Below, piece after piece: positions 11,439-25,895 of a stretch of DNA of 47,390 nt (position 1 is the stretch's first letter; the number at the start of each line of letters is the position of its first letter). The notes under the pieces are model-generated. The model ran no database searches and was not told the DNA's origin. It saw only the letters and a list, made by a program, of their open reading frames with translations. Source of the stretch: an uncultured Clostridia bacterium. Its GTDB lineage: Bacteria > Bacillota > Clostridia > Christensenellales > Borkfalkiaceae. The stretch spans positions 1-47,390 of the forward strand of contig CALVPY010000017.1 in the NCBI GenBank assembly GCA_944354535.1. Direction: 5' to 3'. A program made the position numbers and the translations under genes.

Positions 11439-12197
11439 TCAGCCCATGTTCTCTAAAATGAGTTTATCGGCGACGAGAGCGATGAACTCGCTGTTGGTCG
11501 GCTTTTCGGTGCCGATATAGACGCGTGCGCCGAAGATGGCGTTGACGGCATCGATGCGCCCGCGGTTCCACGCGACCTCGATGGCATGGCGGATGGCGCG
11601 CTCCACCTTGCTCGCCGTCGTCTGAAACTTTTCGCCGATAACGGGATACAGCCCCTTCGTGACGTTGTTGATGACGTGCGGATCTTCGACCGCCATCTTG
11701 ATGCCCTCGCGGAGATACGCATACCCCTTGATGTGCGGCGGGATGCCGATGGAGATAAAGATGTTGCTGATGCGTTCATCCAGGGAGTTGGCGCGGCGGC
11801 GTTCGAGGCTCTCCCTGCGCACGGGCATCTCGCCCGCCACTTCCGCCGCACGGTCGACGACGACGGACGCCTCGACGGGCTTCATCAGATAATACCTTGC
11901 CCCGAGCGCGATGGCGCGGTTGATGATCTTATCGTCCGAAAAATTACCCATGACGATGAACGCGCACTTCTTTTCGCTCCGCTTTGCCTCCTCCATCACC
12001 GTGAACCCGTCAAAGCCCTTCAGAAAGAGGCTCAGGATGACGATGTCGGGATCTTCGTTCTTCAGAAGATTTATCCCCTCTTCGCCGCTGCCCGTCGCGC
12101 CGCAGACTTCCCAGCCCGCACGCGAGGCGATCTGTTCTTTGAGTTCATTTGCAAATGCTTCGTTGCTTTCCAGGATCAAGACCCTTTCCGCCTTCAT
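11439..12197 (-). CDS. spo0A: Spo0A-like response regulator lacking the phosphoacceptor Asp
   Basis: Sporulation-type transcription factor of 252 residues. The C-terminal DNA-binding domain (about 138-250) is classical Spo0A, with HIKGYAYLREGI and the recognition helix around TTASKVERAIRHAIEVAW (193-210). The receiver domain keeps its fold and the Lys106 of LMKP but has lost the phosphorylation chemistry: position 56, the phosphorylated Asp of Bacillus subtilis Spo0A, is Ser (codon AGC at 12032-12030); the acidic pair Asp10-Asp11 is Glu10-Ser11; and the switch Thr is Gly84. Phosphorelay activation as in Bacillus therefore looks impossible. It may be constitutive, controlled by level or ligand, or a divergent paralogue; an orthodox Spo0A elsewhere in the genome cannot be excluded. 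Confidence 0.93.
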   Translation of the reverse strand: MKAERVLILESNEAFANELKEQIASRAGWEVCGATGSGEEGINLLKNEDPDIVILSLFLKGFDGFTVMEEAKRSEKKCAFIVMGNFSDDKIINRAIALGARYYLMKPVEASVVVDRAAEVAGEMPVRRESLERRRANSLDERISNIFISIGIPPHIKGYAYLREGIKMAVEDPHVINNVTKGLYPVIGEKFQTTASKVERAIRHAIEVAWNRGRIDAVNAIFGARVYIGTEKPTNSEFIALVADKLILENMG

Positions 12198-12226: not shown

Positions 12227-12255
12227 ATTATAATTCAGCATTTTGCCGTTGTAAA
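12227..12255 (-). promoter_or_regulatory. Promoter of the Spo0A-like gene
   Basis: Minus-strand TTTACA (12255-12250), 17 bp, TATAAT (12232-12227), about 30 bp before the ATG. Confidence 0.8.
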
Positions 12256-12260
12256 GCTAT

Positions 12261-12317
12261 TTTTGTAAAAAAGTCATTGATTTTTTTACAAAAGTCGTCG
12301 AATTGTGTAAAAAAGTC
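12261..12317. promoter_or_regulatory. AT-rich inverted and direct repeats upstream of the Spo0A-like promoter
   Basis: TTTTGTAAAAAA (12261-12272) and TTTTTTACAAAA (12282-12293) form a 12-bp perfect inverted repeat, and TGTAAAAAAGTC occurs at 12264-12275 and 12306-12317. Between them CGTCGAA (12296-12302) matches the Spo0A box TGTCGAA at six of seven bases. The position just upstream of the -35 suits a regulator site; autoregulation is an inference. Confidence 0.5.
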
Positions 12318-17854: not shown

Positions 17855-17896
17855 AAAAAAGACCTCCGTCGGCCCGTCCGACGGAGGTCTTTTTTT
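17855..17896. terminator. Bidirectional terminator between oxidoreductase and Xre regulator genes
   Basis: GACCTCCGTCGG and CCGACGGAGGTC (17861-17889) pair over 12 bp, with A6 on the left (17855-17860) and T7 on the right (17890-17896), so it can stop transcription from both converging genes. Confidence 0.9.
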
Positions 17897-18098
17897 AATA
17901 ATCGTCGCTCATCCCCAAGAGATAATCTGCCGAAACCTCAAAAAAGCGGCTGATCTTTACCACAAGCTCCGTGCTCAGATCGAGCTGCTCCAGCTCGTAT
18001 TTGCTCACGCTCTTCTGCGTCAACCCGAGCTGTTCCGCAAGCTGCGTCTGCGTCAGCCCTTTCTCGATGCGCAATTCTCTGATCCTCTGCCCGTACAT
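17895..18098 (-). CDS. Xre-family helix-turn-helix regulator
   Basis: Small DNA-binding repressor of 67 residues from ATG 18098 (MYGQRIRELR), almost only a Cro/CI helix-turn-helix: QTQLAEQLGLTQKSVSKYE is the HTH core, followed by a C-terminal cap. A longer in-frame reading to 18149 would run through the divergent operator and is unlikely. It is divergent from the zinc-ribbon membrane protein gene, and inverted repeats lie in the shared control region, so it probably regulates both. AT-richer than surrounding genes on its 5' side. Confidence 0.85.
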   Translation of the reverse strand: MYGQRIRELRIEKGLTQTQLAEQLGLTQKSVSKYELEQLDLSTELVVKISRFFEVSADYLLGMSDDY

Positions 18099-18119
18099 TT
18101 TATCACCCCGCCTACAATT

Positions 18120-18171
18120 TACTCCAAAACGGGGTGAAATACTTGACATACTCTATTTTGGAGTATATAAT
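18120..18171 (+). promoter_or_regulatory. Divergent promoter with palindromic operator
   Basis: TTGACA (18143-18148), 17 bp, TATAAT (18166-18171) is a perfect consensus for the rightward gene. TACTCCAAAA (18120-18129) and TTTTGGAGTA (18156-18165) are exact inverted repeats, and ATACTC/GAGTAT (18148-18153, 18161-18166) is a tighter palindrome lying between -35 and -10, so a bound repressor would block RNA polymerase. Confidence 0.8.
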
Positions 18172-19566: not shown

Positions 19567-19610
19567 CAACACAAAAACAGCACCTGAAATCAGGTGCTGT
19601 TTTTGTGTTG
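19567..19610. terminator. Terminator of tRNA-Glu, likely bidirectional
   Basis: A perfect 20-bp inverted repeat (19567-19586 with 19591-19610, loop AAAT) containing A5 and T5 runs. Its right edge touches the tRNA CCA end, so it acts directly after the tRNA. Confidence 0.85.
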
Positions 19611-19683
19611 GTGACCTTGCCGGGAATCGAACCCGGGATTGCGCCGTGAGAGGGCGCCGTCTTAACCGCTTGACCACAAGGCC
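19609..19683 (-). tRNA. tRNA-Glu, anticodon CTC
   Basis: Full cloverleaf on the minus strand: acceptor arms GGCCTTG and CAAGGTC (one G-U), D-arm with TGGTCAAGCGGTTAAGAC, anticodon stem GCGCC/GGCGC with loop CTCTCAC (anticodon CTC, reads GAG), T-arm CCGGG-TTCGATT-CCCGG, discriminator A and an encoded CCA (19611-19609). Confidence 0.95.
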
Positions 19684-19824: not shown

Positions 19825-20004
19825 AAATGACATCCGCCTGTGCCGCAAACCGATGAAGGTAGACCCGCTTCTCGCAGGTGGGTGCGCGGCGGCACGGCAT
19901 CTGACTTTCCGTAACAACAGACCTTGCATAGCCGCGCCGACAAGCGCTCCCGAATAAAAAATGTGGATCACGCATTTACCGGCTTCCGTACACCGCAGGT
20001 GTCA
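19825..20004 (-). ncRNA. ssrS: Probable 6S RNA (RNA polymerase-binding regulatory RNA)
   Basis: The 390-bp gap between tRNA-Glu and the transferase gene has no gene-like frame but has a promoter followed by about 180 nt whose ends pair: GATGACACCTG at the 5' end with CAGG...ATGTCAT at the 3' end, followed by TTTTATTT. The interior is GC-rich and folds into a long rod, with features I associate with clostridial 6S RNAs (CACCCACCTG...GGGTCTACCTTC in the 3' part). Length fits 6S RNA. The identity is from memory of the family and structure, so it stays probable; an independently transcribed structured RNA is better supported than its name. Confidence 0.55.
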
Positions 20005-20690: not shown

Positions 20691-22208
20691 TCAGTTCACC
20701 TTGATAACGGGGAAACGGATGGTGAGCACGTTGCGGTTTTCCTGCGTACGGTAATAGATCTCGCCCGCGATCTGGCGGATGATCGCCATGCCCATGCCGC
20801 CCTCCGTATAATTGCTGTTGTAATACCCGCCCTCGGGGCGCACCTGCAGAGGATTGAATGGCTCGCCGTCGTCCGTAAAGCGCACGACGAAGCTGTTGCC
20901 CTCTACCTGACAGCTCAGGTGGATGGTATTTGCCCCCGAATGATTGACGATATTGGTAAAGATCTCCTCGCACGCCAAAAAGATCTTGTTCTTGCGGGGG
21001 TCGTCTTTGAGCCAGTCGAGGATGGTATCGCGCAGGCGCTCGAGTTCGCTCGTCTTGGGGCTGAGCTCGGTCTGGATGCCGTTGGGATAGTAGAGGGCGT
21101 AGACGGCAAGATCGTCCCGAAGGGCGGCGCCCCCGACAAAGCCCTTGACGGCCTCGGTGACGGCAGAGACGATGCGCTCCGCCCCCAAAGAGCGTTCCCA
21201 ACCGTCCTTGACGGCATCGAAGAGACGGTCGTAGCCGAACGCCTCGCCCTTTGCGCTGCGCGCTTCCACCGCGCCGTTCGTATAGGTGACGAGGCAGCGC
21301 CCCGGCTTGAAGATGAGATATTCCTCGGTGAGTTCGGGCTGACGGTAGAGCCCGAGCGGGCAGCCCGGCTGCACGCGCAGGAAGGCGCGCTCCTTGCCCA
21401 CGAGGACGGGCGGATTGGCGCCCGCATTGACATAGCGCAGCTCCCCCGTGCCGGGCATGAAGACCGCAAAGAAGCCCGTCAGGGCAAGGCGGTCGGGATT
21501 GTTTTCGACAAGCGCCTGATTGAGGCGCAGGACGGCTTCGGCCAGCGTATCGGAAGTGTGCGCGGCGTCGCGGAAGAGTTCTTTGGCGCGGGAAGCAAAG
21601 CGCGCTGCCGCAAAGCCGCTGCCCCAGACGTCCGCCGTCATGAAGCAGAGCGTGCGGCGGCCGAGATAGAACCCGTCAAAGAAGTCGGCTGAAATGAGGG
21701 AGGCGCGCTCCGCCCCGCCCGCGCCGCTGAAATCGAGCTCGATGCAGGGCAGCGACGTCGACGAAAGGGCGGCCTCCATATCGCGGGCGATGCCTTCCTC
21801 GGCCTTCCTCCGAGCGTCGAGGGCGATGGCGCCCTCGCGGTCTTTGACGGACTGTTCCACGGAAGCGCCGAGCTTTTGGATGGCGCTCTCCACGGGAGCC
21901 CATTCTCCGCCGAGTCCGGCCTGCCTGTGCGCGGCGGCCTCTTCGACGGCGCGCGCCGCACGGGAGATAGAGGATGCGATGCGGATGAAGTAAAAGACGA
22001 GCGCCGCAGCGTACATGATGAGCAGCACTGCGAGCGCGGGAACGACCTCCCACAGCACGCGGTGCAAAACCTCGGCATCGCTGCCCGCGCCGTCGGGAAG
22101 CAGGACAAAGTAGCGGATCGCGCCGTACACGACCGCCGCCAGGACAAGCCCCGCGAAGAACAGGGTGAGGATCTTGGGGAACGTGAGCCCCATGCGCCGT
22201 TTGCTCAT
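20691..22208 (-). CDS. Fused SpoIIE/RsbU-type phosphatase and HATPase (RsbW-like) kinase, membrane bound
   Basis: A 505-residue partner-switching protein. Two membrane helices (about 13-36 and 52-76) precede a short coiled coil, a PP2C-like SpoIIE domain (about 150-370: SADFFDGF, ADVWGSG and RDDLAVY hold the metal-binding Asp residues), and a C-terminal GHKL ATPase (about 385-505: EEIFTNIVNHS N-box, DDGEPF, GGMGMAII). So both the enzyme that would dephosphorylate an anti-sigma antagonist and the one that would phosphorylate it lie in one chain. The ATG overlaps the stop of the STAS gene (ATGA). No sigma factor gene is nearby; the output is unknown. Confidence 0.92.
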   Translation of the reverse strand: MSKRRMGLTFPKILTLFFAGLVLAAVVYGAIRYFVLLPDGAGSDAEVLHRVLWEVVPALAVLLIMYAAALVFYFIRIASSISRAARAVEEAAAHRQAGLGGEWAPVESAIQKLGASVEQSVKDREGAIALDARRKAEEGIARDMEAALSSTSLPCIELDFSGAGGAERASLISADFFDGFYLGRRTLCFMTADVWGSGFAAARFASRAKELFRDAAHTSDTLAEAVLRLNQALVENNPDRLALTGFFAVFMPGTGELRYVNAGANPPVLVGKERAFLRVQPGCPLGLYRQPELTEEYLIFKPGRCLVTYTNGAVEARSAKGEAFGYDRLFDAVKDGWERSLGAERIVSAVTEAVKGFVGGAALRDDLAVYALYYPNGIQTELSPKTSELERLRDTILDWLKDDPRKNKIFLACEEIFTNIVNHSGANTIHLSCQVEGNSFVVRFTDDGEPFNPLQVRPEGGYYNSNYTEGGMGMAIIRQIAGEIYYRTQENRNVLTIRFPVIKVN

Positions 22209-23072: not shown

Positions 23073-23300
23073 TTACTTCTGAAGCTTGTTCATCATATCG
23101 ACGATATCCTGCACCGTCTTGATGTTCTCCACATCGGTCTCGGGAAGGGTGATGCCGTACTCGTCTTCAAGCGCCATCATGAGCTCCACGACGTCGAGGG
23201 AATCGGCGCCGAGGTCTTTGACGACCTCCTGCTCGGGGCGGATGCTGTCCGCCGGGATCCCCAGCTGCTCGCCGAGCATATTGCAAACTTTCTCAAACAT
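23073..23300 (-). CDS. acpP: Acyl carrier protein
   Basis: Carries acyl chains on phosphopantetheine in fatty acid synthesis. The 75 residues match the family in length, acidity and the attachment motif GADSLDVVEL (Ser34). ATG 23300 follows GGAGG by 8 nt. It has its own promoter and terminator, and is not in a fab cluster here. Confidence 0.95.
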   Translation of the reverse strand: MFEKVCNMLGEQLGIPADSIRPEQEVVKDLGADSLDVVELMMALEDEYGITLPETDVENIKTVQDIVDMMNKLQK

Positions 23301-23356
23301 AAGAATATCCTCCGTAACTCGCCGCACGCGGCGGCTTGTCATATCTCTGTGTGACT

Positions 23357-23385
23357 ATCATACAACAAGAATATGGGTTTGTCAA
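23357..23385 (-). promoter_or_regulatory. acpP promoter
   Basis: Minus-strand TTGACA (23385-23380), 17 bp, TATGAT (23362-23357). The -35 overlaps the stop codon of the upstream gene. Confidence 0.8.
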
Positions 23386-24083
23386 CCCTTTTCGGGAATT
23401 TTGCCCCCATTCGTTGCCTTTTTGAACGATCTGAGCTCCTCTTTCTGCTCTTTGGTGAGGCGAAAGCTCTCGCACGCCTTCCGGATCGCCATATTGTGGA
23501 CGAAGGGGAGGAGCCGCCCCTCTTTAAGATATGTAAGTCCCGAAGCGTAACACTTTATAAGCACTTCCGCCATCAGCCACGCCGCGCCCATGCCCGTATA
23601 GTAACGGCTCCCGTCCGCTTCTTCGAGCGCCGCGAAAATTTCAGGCAGATACTTCTCTTCCACATAATCGTGAAGGAGAGAGACGAGGGCATAGCGCTCC
23701 ACGAACTCCCTGCCGTCGCGCGAAAAGGCGCGGATGTATGGCAAAAACTCCTCTTTATGTTTTGCAATGCAGGGAGCATGGAAACCGTCCACCGTCGCCC
23801 AGTTATCGAGAAGCCCCACCATTTCTGAAAGCCCCTCGCAAAAGCGATCAAAGGGCAGGAGCGCATAGAGGGAAAACTTCAGAAAGGTCACCTCGTAATA
23901 CTCGTCGGGGAAGGTGAGAAAGCGTTCCGTCTCCCCCTTCCACGCGCGCGCCAGCCGCCTTAAAACAGGCATCCTCACGCCGATGACCTCGATATTCTCG
24001 TTCTTCAAGAGCTTTTTATGAAATTCCCGGTACCCCTCGTCGCGCTCCGAAAAGAGGCGGGAGAGCACTTCCTCGTACGTCAT
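23382..24083 (-). CDS. AlkD-like DNA alkylation repair protein
   Basis: A 233-residue all-helical HEAT-repeat protein of the AlkC/AlkD glycosylase superfamily, which removes N3- and N7-alkylpurines. Recognisable blocks are LLDNWATVDGF in the middle and FVHNMAIRKACESFRLTKEQ near the end. Length is normal. The ATG overlaps the stop of the preceding glycosylase gene (ATGA), so two DNA-repair glycosylases are co-translated. Confidence 0.88.
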   Translation of the reverse strand: MTYEEVLSRLFSERDEGYREFHKKLLKNENIEVIGVRMPVLRRLARAWKGETERFLTFPDEYYEVTFLKFSLYALLPFDRFCEGLSEMVGLLDNWATVDGFHAPCIAKHKEEFLPYIRAFSRDGREFVERYALVSLLHDYVEEKYLPEIFAALEEADGSRYYTGMGAAWLMAEVLIKCYASGLTYLKEGRLLPFVHNMAIRKACESFRLTKEQKEELRSFKKATNGGKIPEKG

Positions 24084-24607
24084 ACCTTCTCCTTTTCGCC
24101 CGCACAGGCTTCTTCACCGACCACTCCCGAAAATGCTTCAGAAAGCGCCTCTGACCACGCTTCCGGGCAAAAGCGCGGGTTGGCGGGTGACGTCGAGGGG
24201 AGCTTTTTCGCAATGGGAACAAGTTCGGGGAAATGCCTTTGAAACAAATTGTAAGCCGTCGTGCCGTTGCAGAGGATGCGGCGAATGTTGCTCCCCTTCA
24301 CGAGCGAAGCGACGTCTGCGACCGTTTCGCCCTGAATGGAAGCGTCGGAAGAGCCCTCGATGGTGCAGCTTATCACAACGTCCCACAGCGCCGTGCCGTG
24401 CTTCAAGACATACGCCCGCCTGCCCTCCGCATCCTTCGGGGGCTCCTCGTGAAAGAACGCCCCGAGCGTGCGCCAGAACTTATTCTGCGGGTTGCCGTAA
24501 TAAAAGCCCTGCGCGCGGCTCCTGACGGAGGGAAAGCTCCCTAAAATGAGCACGCGGCTGTTTTCGTCAAAGACGGGCGCAAAGCCCTCGCAAAAGGCGG
24601 CTTTCAC
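24080..24607 (-). CDS. DNA-deoxyinosine glycosylase (uracil-DNA glycosylase superfamily, family 6)
   Basis: Predicted to remove hypoxanthine (deaminated adenine) from DNA. The 175 residues carry the family block ILGSFPSVRSRAQGFYYG near the start, NKFWR, and the C-terminal STSPANPR. GTG start at 24607 overlaps the stop of the M16 gene (GTGA); the 11 in-frame codons before it are part of the M16 gene. Uracil activity is less likely in this subfamily. Confidence 0.87.
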   Translation of the reverse strand: MKAAFCEGFAPVFDENSRVLILGSFPSVRSRAQGFYYGNPQNKFWRTLGAFFHEEPPKDAEGRRAYVLKHGTALWDVVISCTIEGSSDASIQGETVADVASLVKGSNIRRILCNGTTAYNLFQRHFPELVPIAKKLPSTSPANPRFCPEAWSEALSEAFSGVVGEEACAGEKEKV

Positions 24608-25842
24608 AGGGTAAGAGGGGCTTTGAGGTTGCCCACGCACGCCGAAGCGGCGGCAGAGAAGTCGAGATTTTCTGCGATGACGCGCAGGATGTCCTCGCGG
24701 GTGAGCGCGGAAATTTCCGCCATGCGCTGCTCGAAGTCGTACACCTCGTTCTTATAGAGCAGCTGCTTGCCGTAGACGAGCATCTGCGAAGAGGTGTTCT
24801 CCTGCGAAAAGATATTGCTCGCTTTGAGCGTCTCGCGCCCGCGCAAAAATTCCTCCTCGGTGACGCCCTTCTCTTTGAATTCGTTCAAAACGGCGGAAAC
24901 CGCCTTTGCGGCGTCCTCCGCCTTCTTGGGGTTGACGCCCGCATACACGGTGAGCATACCCGTCTCCTTATAGTGAGAGGTGTAGGAATAGACGGAATAC
25001 GCGAGCCCCAGCTCCTCGCGCACCCGCTTGAAAAGGCGCGAGCTCATCCCGCCGCCTAAGATAGCGTTCATCACCTGCACGGCTGCTAAGTTTTCGCTGT
25101 CGCGCGAAACGGTGGGGAAGCCGAAGGCAAAGTGCGCCTGCTCGATGGACTTCTGGCGGAAGATGCTCTCCGTGCGGCGGACGATGTGCTTTTCGCGCTC
25201 TATGAACTTTTCGCCCGCAAGCGCGCCGAACTCCCGTTCCGCCAATTCCTCGGCAAGGGCGGGCTCGATGTTGCCCGCAAAGGAGATGACGATGTTTTCG
25301 GGGCAGTAGCGCTCCTTCTTATAGGCAAAGAGCTGCTCCCTCGTGAAGCCCTCCACGTTTTCCCGCGGGCCTAAGATGTTGCGCCCGTAGTTGTCGTTCC
25401 CGAACGCCGCCCGCGAGAGAAGGTCGAGGCACAGGTCCTCGGGCGAATCTTCGTCCATGCCGATCTCTTCGATCACGACGCCCTTCTCGCGCGCCATCTC
25501 GTCCTCGGGGAAGGTGGAGCGCAGAAAGAGCTCGGAAAGAAGGGAAAACGCCTCTTTGGCGTGGTCGCTCGTCGATTTTGCATAGTAGCAGGTGAGATCT
25601 TTCCCCGTGAAGGCGTTCACCTGCGCGCCGATCGCATCGAAGGCGTCGGAAAGTTCAAAGGCGGTATATTTTTCCGTGCCCTTGAACTGCATATGTTCGA
25701 TGAAGTGGGAGATGCCGTCCTCCTCGTCCCGCTCGAAGGCGGCGCCCGTGCCCACGAGCACGCCCATCGTGACGGACAGCAGCCCCTCCATGCGCTTGGT
25801 GATGACGCGCACGCCGTTTGAAAGTGTCTTTGTCGTTACCAT
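24604..25842 (-). CDS. M16-family zinc peptidase (MlpA/YmxG-like)
   Basis: Insulinase/mitochondrial-processing-like peptidase of 412 residues. The inverted zinc motif HFIEH (His46, Glu49, His50) lies in the N-terminal half, with the downstream acidic ligand region EKGVVIEEI; the second half is the usual inactive repeat. A weak ribosome site precedes ATG 25842. It follows ylxY by 53 bp, the same pairing as ylxY-mlpA in Bacillus subtilis. Physiological substrate not known. Confidence 0.92.
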   Translation of the reverse strand: MVTTKTLSNGVRVITKRMEGLLSVTMGVLVGTGAAFERDEEDGISHFIEHMQFKGTEKYTAFELSDAFDAIGAQVNAFTGKDLTCYYAKSTSDHAKEAFSLLSELFLRSTFPEDEMAREKGVVIEEIGMDEDSPEDLCLDLLSRAAFGNDNYGRNILGPRENVEGFTREQLFAYKKERYCPENIVISFAGNIEPALAEELAEREFGALAGEKFIEREKHIVRRTESIFRQKSIEQAHFAFGFPTVSRDSENLAAVQVMNAILGGGMSSRLFKRVREELGLAYSVYSYTSHYKETGMLTVYAGVNPKKAEDAAKAVSAVLNEFKEKGVTEEEFLRGRETLKASNIFSQENTSSQMLVYGKQLLYKNEVYDFEQRMAEISALTREDILRVIAENLDFSAAASACVGNLKAPLTL

Positions 25843-25895
25843 ATCGTTCAGTATCCTTCTCCTTGGTGAGTTTTATCCGCCATACGGCGCAGGGC

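Follow-up and report, generated by a model that had tools for sequence, protein, structure and literature searches.

The stretch of DNA analysed here (the window) comprises 47,390 nucleotides from an uncultured Clostridia bacterium of the gut, with a Candidatus Gallimonas genome of 1.93 Mb in 53 contigs that is 92.8% complete. The window and nearly all of the relatives compared with it are metagenome-assembled genomes (MAGs) by their records, and we take Gallimonas to be a member of the Borkfalkiaceae, in the order Christensenellales. The gene of interest is spo0A, whose frame is open throughout on translation (Table 1) and whose product matches the whole-protein model TIGR02875 (spore_0_A) with 243.5 bits, over a cut-off of 200. 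Specifically, Pfam places a receiver (Response_reg, PF00072) at residues 6–116 with 57.9 bits and the Spo0A DNA-binding domain (Spo0A_C, PF08769) at residues 143–246 with 135.5 bits. The latter is 55–60% identical to the Spo0A structures 1fc3 and 1lq1 (Foldseek) and includes the recognition helix, and the consensus of the recognition-helix region is the same in Spo0As of the order with and without Asp56, apart from one variable position; an earlier note on this DNA had called this domain classical. The nearest species-named record among the best 80 of 88 related loci is Candidatus Gallimonas gallistercoris (L044), which is 94% identical.

Table 1. Features of the spo0A locus, in window coordinates.
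Feature	Position	Strand	Basis
spo0A, 252 aa	11439..12197	-	sole Spo0A found in the genome
receiver domain, residues 4-121, aspartate-less	11835..12188	-	Pfam, AF2, Foldseek
codons 10-11, Glu-Ser where the acidic pair is expected	12165..12170	-	translation, alignment
codon 56, AGC (Ser) where the phosphoacceptor Asp is expected	12030..12032	-	translation, alignment
codon 84, Gly where the switch Thr/Ser is expected	11946..11948	-	translation, alignment
codon 106, Lys kept (38/38 Gallimonas-type sequences)	11880..11882	-	alignment
Spo0A_C DNA-binding domain, residues 139-250	11448..11783	-	Pfam, alignment
sigma-A-type promoter of spo0A, TTTACA-17-TATAAT, 11/12 consensus	12227..12255	-	sequence match
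phased palindrome 1, 1 mismatch to TTTTGTACAAAA, closest to the -35	12261..12272	.	motif scan
phased palindrome 2, 1 mismatch to TTTTGTACAAAA, 21 bp farther upstream	12282..12293	.	motif scan
phased palindrome 3, 2 mismatches to TTTTGTACAAAA, another 21 bp upstream	12303..12314	.	motif scan

The earlier note, made from the letters alone, had described this protein as a Spo0A with four of five receiver active-site positions changed. On re-reading, every residue was as it had said: E10 and S11, S56 (codon AGC, 12032-12030), G84 and, alone kept, K106, a set with which the receiver does not qualify as phosphorylatable. The four changes are not of equal weight, S11, S56 and G84 being strong departures and E10 a mild one, since Glu10 is also found in 27 of the 112 Asp56-bearing Spo0As of the order. 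In the AlphaFold2 (AF2) model of the protein (mean pLDDT 85.6, pTM 0.52) the strands and helices of the receiver still follow the (beta-alpha)5 order, and Foldseek matches the modelled receiver to those of Spo0A (5wq0, 1qmp). Its PF00072 score, the receiver fold in the model and Ser56 together place it among the pseudo-receivers as delimited by Bourret et al. 2025 (PMC12632262). Aspartate-less receivers are a known kind; ChxR, HP1043, GlnR and RitR likewise retain a folded receiver without the Asp, and pseudo-receiver regulators are described as able to work without phosphorylation in the available parts of two papers (PMC12632262, PMC4395418).

The altered residues are fixed in the genus. An alignment of 38 Gallimonas-type proteins (identity to the window Spo0A of 70% or more) shows no variation at E10, N12, S56, L57, L59, D63, G64, G84, D88, D89, Y102, Y103, K106 and P107; S11 is shared by 35 of them. 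Codon 56 is AGC in five other MAG records that are 92–96% identical (L002-L005, L044) and AGC or AGT in all 28 Gallimonas-type genes compared, on which ground a sequencing error at this codon was rejected; decay to a pseudogene was rejected on the open frame and purifying selection. Error or decay of the window gene is unlikely because E10, S56, G84 and K106 are kept in 38/38 sequences and the gene is under purifying selection. The earlier note had named, as signs that would count against its reading, relatives with Asp56 alongside an error at this codon, or a second, intact spo0A. Relatives with Asp56 do exist, in 9 of 11 rows of the sister genus g2, but neither a codon error nor a second spo0A was seen. 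A profile search of the MAG (92.8% complete) gave a single Spo0A_C match and no second one, so that a canonical spo0A elsewhere in the genome was rejected and the suggestion of a paralogue beside a canonical copy found no support.

Canonical receivers meet their kinases with the face formed by alpha1. The window clade (6 sequences) has a dN/dS of 0.017 in the DNA-binding domain and 0.095 over the receiver; within the receiver the value is 0.033 for the alpha4-beta5-alpha5 segment and rises to 0.365 in alpha1. Across four Gallimonas groups the receiver value is 0.06–0.10, with dS high in three of them; alpha1 in those other three gives 0.10–0.13 at high receiver dS (means of about 1.3), so that a clear alpha1 contrast is confined to the window clade.

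One explanation of an invariant Ser56 (38/38) is that phosphorylation has persisted in another form, either on this serine through a Ser/Thr kinase or on a different residue, and the atypical regulator GlnR does undergo Ser/Thr phosphorylation (PMC12632262, in the part available). We consider this very improbable. Other genera of the family carry Gly, Asn, Ala or Trp at position 56, so a Ser-specific route is not general, and Ser56 was rejected as a general Ser/Thr phosphosite for the same reason. Moreover, no new conserved Asp taking the place of D56 was seen among these receivers, D63 matching an Asp of the solved Spo0A receivers.

Loss of the acceptor extends well beyond this genus. At the best 80 of the 88 related loci, position 56 was readable in 78 and was Ser in 48, Gly in 22, Asn in 4, Glu in 3 and Asp in 1. 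For a wider view we used an even sample of 151 genomes from 27 family codes of the order and a family sample of 121 genomes from 18 genera, for which 60 of 80 further places were added. These gave 229 aligned rows, from which 21 second or receiver-less copies and 3 rows gapped at position 56 were removed (208, then 205). Of the resulting 205 primary Spo0As, 112 have Asp56 and 93 do not, the replacements being Glu (39), Gly (22), Ser (21), Asn (6), Tyr (3), Trp (1) and Ala (1). Gallimonas (g1) is Ser in 12/12, and Glu56 is found in genera g81 (2/2), g83 (5/5) and g82 (4/5). Genus g3 has Glu, Gly and one Asp; g91 has Gly, Ser and Glu; and g80, g84, g85, g86, g87, g88 and g89 have Gly, Ser or Asn, with one Ala and one Trp. 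Asp56 is kept in the readable rows of g79, g90, g92 and g93.

A gene tree was built without the active-site columns, using a quick search, and branches with SH-aLRT of at least 95 were starred; it is a single-gene tree with long branches. On it the presence or absence of Asp56 changes 15 times, and at least 6 of the changes are forced by starred branches. Collapsing weak branches gave an equal count at every threshold and was not used; the six forced changes rest on the starred branches. Some of the changes may represent a regained Asp. A broken acidic pair is found in 89 of the 93 Asp-less rows and in 35 of the 112 Asp rows, and in g2, where Asp56 is mostly present, it is already broken; across these alignments the pattern is consistent with metal binding having been lost ahead of the acceptor. 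The residue two places after the conserved Lys (Lys+2) is said to bias receivers toward active states (PMC12632262, available part); it is Ala, Ile, Leu or Val in 53/93 Asp-less and 48/112 Asp rows, a difference that is suggestive only.

Some genomes carry additional or unusual copies. Two Spo0A-type proteins are encoded in several genomes of the order (among them G001, G015, G027, G070, G072, G134 and G144), and in some cases the active site of the second one is changed. One Gallimonas genome (G106) has, besides a normal spo0A, two near-identical 119-aa proteins consisting of the Spo0A DNA-binding domain only (L318 and L319, 2986-3345, reverse strand), which are possible competitors for 0A boxes. 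In a g3 genome (G220, L256) the spo0A match contains one in-frame TAA, which may reflect a broken gene or a misassembly.

If phosphate is not the signal, the receiver might instead be another kind of sensor, in which a ligand, a partner protein or redox chemistry at Cys32 switches dimerisation and DNA binding, with spo0A transcription secondary. The receiver is folded in the AF2 model and under purifying selection, its conservation in Gallimonas peaks at alpha4 (0.88) and beta5 (0.93), and ligand- and redox-controlled pseudo-receivers exist (PMC12632262, as far as available). At least 80% of the 38 Gallimonas-type sequences have Cys32, which leaves room for redox control; however, this residue lies two or three residues away from DD+19, the place named in the accessible part of the same paper. 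There are also relatives whose receiver is missing or unrecognisable. In f21 the active site is unrecognisable in three of six rows, and in a g79 genome (G166) the sole Spo0A match is a 134-aa protein with no receiver (L276, 2258-2662, forward strand). On its 43 kb contig this short gene is separated from the end by 2.3 kb, and an entire gene precedes it.

Nor is there an obvious partner gene beside spo0A, where short flanks weaken the test. Only the upstream neighbour, presumably an ABC-F type ATPase, recurs past the closest relatives (37 of the best 80 of 88 loci), and no conserved partner stands out clearly, many flanks being short and window genes at 23-26 kb turning up near spo0A in as many as 20 other loci. 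Taken together, we regard control through such a sensor as rather unlikely.

Genes of the window at 23076-25872 (reverse strand), 11-14 kb from spo0A, include one for an M16 peptidase. In 10-20 of the 80 related loci they are found again near spo0A, and the loci sharing them form a group without the window's other neighbours. At 20691-22208 (reverse strand) lies a 505-aa protein in which a SpoIIE-type PP2C phosphatase domain is fused to an RsbW-type HATPase_c_2 domain, that is, opposing phosphatase and kinase folds in a single chain. A 6S RNA (19827-20004, reverse strand; 58 bits, cut-off 46.4) has a tRNA-Glu alongside (19609-19683, reverse strand). An 84-aa XRE-type HTH protein is encoded at 17895-18149 (reverse strand), about 6 kb from spo0A, and the loci compared have flanks of at most 6 kb.

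In Clostridia, Spo0A is described as usually receiving its phosphate from orphan kinases (PMC11210211, available part). In seven Gallimonas genomes, 14 of the 15 HisKA kinases adjoin a response-regulator gene, and for the fifteenth (L373, a 303-aa frame) the 1.2 kb examined upstream contains no such gene; none is a hybrid, and at most one is a possible orphan. In three genomes of the mostly Asp56-bearing g2, 5 of 12 HisKA proteins are hybrids with their own receiver, one of them encoded 0.3-0.4 kb upstream of spo0A. Across the order, Asp-less genomes have a median of 2 HisKA proteins (n=33) and Asp genomes 5.5 (n=94), with p 1.4e-7 raw and p 2e-4 without family f23, kinship and genome size being removed in neither; when kinase number was compared with Asp loss in pairs drawn from the tree, the pairs were too few for a decision. 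The residues, their fixation throughout the genus, the forced changes in the order and the scarcity of free HisKA kinases all support the earlier note's view that phosphorelay control is very unlikely.

Family f23 is the extreme case. None of its ten genomes (G023, G044, G061, G075, G087, G099, G111, G123, G133, G143; 0.8-1.2 Mb, 98-100% complete) has a HisKA match, and all ten have SpoIVA and a Spo0A, with Glu at position 56 in nine and Asp in one. Judging from frame length, their HATPase_c matches are probably mostly of gyrase/MutL type, plus an anti-sigma factor; exceptions include a 116-aa frame with a kinase-like score in G111 and a 722-aa frame in G044. Glu56 forms such as these, also seen in f10, f17 and others, could be built-in phosphomimics that are always on, with Gallimonas a later derivative, and it may be in keeping with this that Glu is the commonest replacement overall and that f23, with Glu56 in nine of ten, has no HisKA match. 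However, an Asp-to-Glu change alone is often insufficient, with Spo0A among the examples (PMC4395418, available part), Gallimonas has Ser rather than Glu, and the changes on the tree are unpolarised; we think this explanation unlikely.

Loss of Asp56 is not accompanied by loss of sporulation genes. SpoIVA is over its cut-off in 128 of the 151 genomes of the order sample, that of the window included, with two genomes (G124, G147) counted as lacking it by elimination. A SpoIVA match is present in 33/33 Asp-less and 85/94 Asp genomes; we claim no difference between the two because Fisher's p is 0.11. The idea that Asp56 was lost as sporulation genes were lost was rejected on the 33/33. No Spo0A row was obtained from ten of the 151 genomes, although they have SpoIVA; three of these (G086, G098, G142) do have matches to the Spo0A model, at about 1e-38 to 1e-42, outside the aligned rows.

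In the genome of the window SpoIVA and SpoIIAB exceed their cut-offs and SigG exceeds one of its two, and there are SigF-, SpoIIAA- and SpoIIE-like proteins that all fall under their equivalog cut-offs (274 bits against a curated cut-off of 490.8 for the SpoIIE-like one). The sporulation genes that the earlier note had listed for checking are thus present in part: SigG and the SigF- and SpoIIE-like proteins are found, but apart from a 193-bit paralogue no SigE-type gene is seen in this 92.8% complete MAG. Such a gene is present in 11 of 12 family genomes and, at about 340 bits or more, in 54 of 61 genomes of the genus, and in 16 of these it passes the curated cut-off. The six further genomes of the genus without it are 63-79% complete, and we read the gap in the window's genome, short of proof, as assembly loss. 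A SpoIIE match occurs in 118 of the 121 family-sample genomes, none over the curated cut-off, and G106 gave no SpoIIE match.

These gaps may be consistent with Spo0A having been repurposed outside sporulation in a lineage where sporulation is decaying, as SigE is absent from this assembly, no SpoIIE passes the curated cut-off in the 121 family genomes, and no report of Gallimonas spores was found among the open-access papers listed. Against this stand SpoIVA throughout the Asp-less genomes, the SigE-type gene in most of the genus, with its other misses in incomplete assemblies, the SigF-like, SigG, SpoIIAB and SpoIIAA-like proteins of the genome itself, and a near-invariant DNA-binding domain together with 0A-box cores enriched before spo0A in the genus. 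We therefore hold repurposing to be decidedly improbable. Because Asp56 is lost while sporulation genes stay, the Asp56-less lineages probably start sporulation through another input, and of the earlier note's two alternatives a different mode of control in this lineage is favoured, without being proved.

A place where such an input could act lies upstream of spo0A. A sigma-A-type promoter was recognised in 32 of 35 Gallimonas spo0A upstream regions, and these 32 loci were scanned, anchored on the -35, for TTTTGTACAAAA-like palindromes with up to 3 mismatches. Their centres lie at -11 relative to the -35 in 32/32 loci, at -32/-33 in 30 and at -53/-54 in 29, a spacing of 21 bp or two helical turns. 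All three are in phase in 28/32 loci and two or more in 30/32, where base shuffles lead one to expect 0.0 and 0.1, expectations that overstate independence because the 32 promoters are related by descent. Conservation is about 1-1.6 bits per column over the palindromes and about 0.2 farther upstream, a drop that argues for selection. Relative to the probable transcription start, the palindromes appear to occupy activator-like positions.

The window has two further sites with 2 mismatches (5538, 5587), where whole-window shuffles expect 0.6. No pairs 19-24 bp apart were seen in 25 sporulation-gene loci (L229, L328-L351), and where the other loci examined have such pairs beyond the catalogued stretches 5' of spo0A, the coordinates again put them directly 5' of that gene, except in L107, L114 and L139. 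A wider survey counted a row as positive if it had at least two elements, each with no more than 2 mismatches, within 250 bp upstream of spo0A. Of the 17 genera of the family surveyed, 14 have at least one positive row, and the three without (g79, g90, g93) all keep Asp. Elsewhere, positive rows were found in f16 (2/2), f21 (4/6), f14 (2/8), f17 (1/8), f7 (1/1), f8 (1/1) and f9 (1/2), and none in f3, f4, f6, f10, f15, f19, f20, f23, f25 and f26. As f10 (Glu56 in 5/10) and f23 (Glu56 in 9/10) have none and f16, with Asp56, has them in 2/2, this family-by-family distribution makes the element a feature of wider relatives and no simple correlate of Asp loss. Literature searched for the TTTTGTACAAAA operator string gave nothing relevant among the matches listed.

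The regulator's own boxes were also sought. In 33 Gallimonas spo0A upstream regions there are 25 0A-box cores (TGNCGAA), where base shuffles give 3.4 and random windows of the same loci about 7, an excess that suggests autoregulation; the window's own spo0A has no exact core upstream. Cores occur upstream of spoIIA in 2 of 7 loci, with three in the window's genome, and upstream of spoIIE in 3 of 5 loci, with none in that genome.

We hypothesise that this single-copy Spo0A has become phosphorylation-independent with the loss of its aspartate, and that its activity is set mainly by regulated synthesis, a reading that we favour with some confidence. The receiver would not undergo the usual Asp phosphorylation in the cell and may persist as a conserved module that keeps its fold and serves dimerisation or regulation, while the DNA-binding domain would still read 0A boxes without phosphate and so continue to control sporulation. 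Output would then follow Spo0A concentration, as set by transcription from the strong sigma-A-type promoter, with a candidate factor binding the three phased TTTTGTACAAAA-like palindromes as the main input and feedback perhaps exerted via 0A boxes. For constitutively active pseudo-receivers, control by availability, for example synthesis, has been described, with ligand or redox control as alternatives (PMC12632262, available part). A broader proposal, which we put forward tentatively and hold at somewhat less than even, is that several lineages of the order have uncoupled the start of sporulation from two-component phosphotransfer, through repeated loss of the acceptor and of HisKA kinases (wholly in f23), and that in the Gallimonas family a regulator acting on phased TTTTGTACAAAA decides via Spo0A dosage.

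Measured against canonical Spo0A (TIGR02875), the window protein is alike in domain order, DNA-binding domain and recognition-helix region, in being single copy in a genome with sporulation genes, and in the enrichment of 0A-box cores upstream of spo0A in its genus. It differs in having no Asp56, no second acidic residue and no switch Thr/Ser, in a genus where hybrid HisKA kinases are absent from the seven genomes and possible orphans number at most one. The described input of Spo0A is phosphorylation (PMC6136694), at a conserved Asp (PMC11210211), in the parts of these papers available. Clostridia with directly phosphorylated Spo0A likewise need no Bacillus-type phosphorelay, but there orphan kinases phosphorylate the conserved Asp (PMC11210211, PMC6136694, same parts), whereas in Gallimonas the acceptor is lost and 14/15 HisKA kinases sit beside another regulator. 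The pseudo-receivers named in the available parts of PMC12632262 and PMC4395418 are regulators other than an Asp-less Spo0A; the string 'sporulat' has no occurrence in the former, and both mentions of Spo0A in the available part of the latter concern Spo0A mutants. We found no report of an Asp-less or phosphorylation-independent Spo0A in lineages with sporulation genes in the open-access literature, outside which most subscription journals lie.

These results bear on how sporulation is read from genomes. A gut MAG survey takes the presence of spo0A as the first criterion for sporulation potential in Borkfalkiaceae MAGs (PMC11536998, as far as available; the string 'phosphoryl' has no occurrence in its main text), and presence of spo0A as a marker does not imply phosphorelay or kinase control. 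With an order in which many genomes combine an Asp-less Spo0A with sporulation genes, and one family in it lacks any HisKA match, the minimal input to sporulation becomes testable, and the phased operator offers a practical route to the replacement input.
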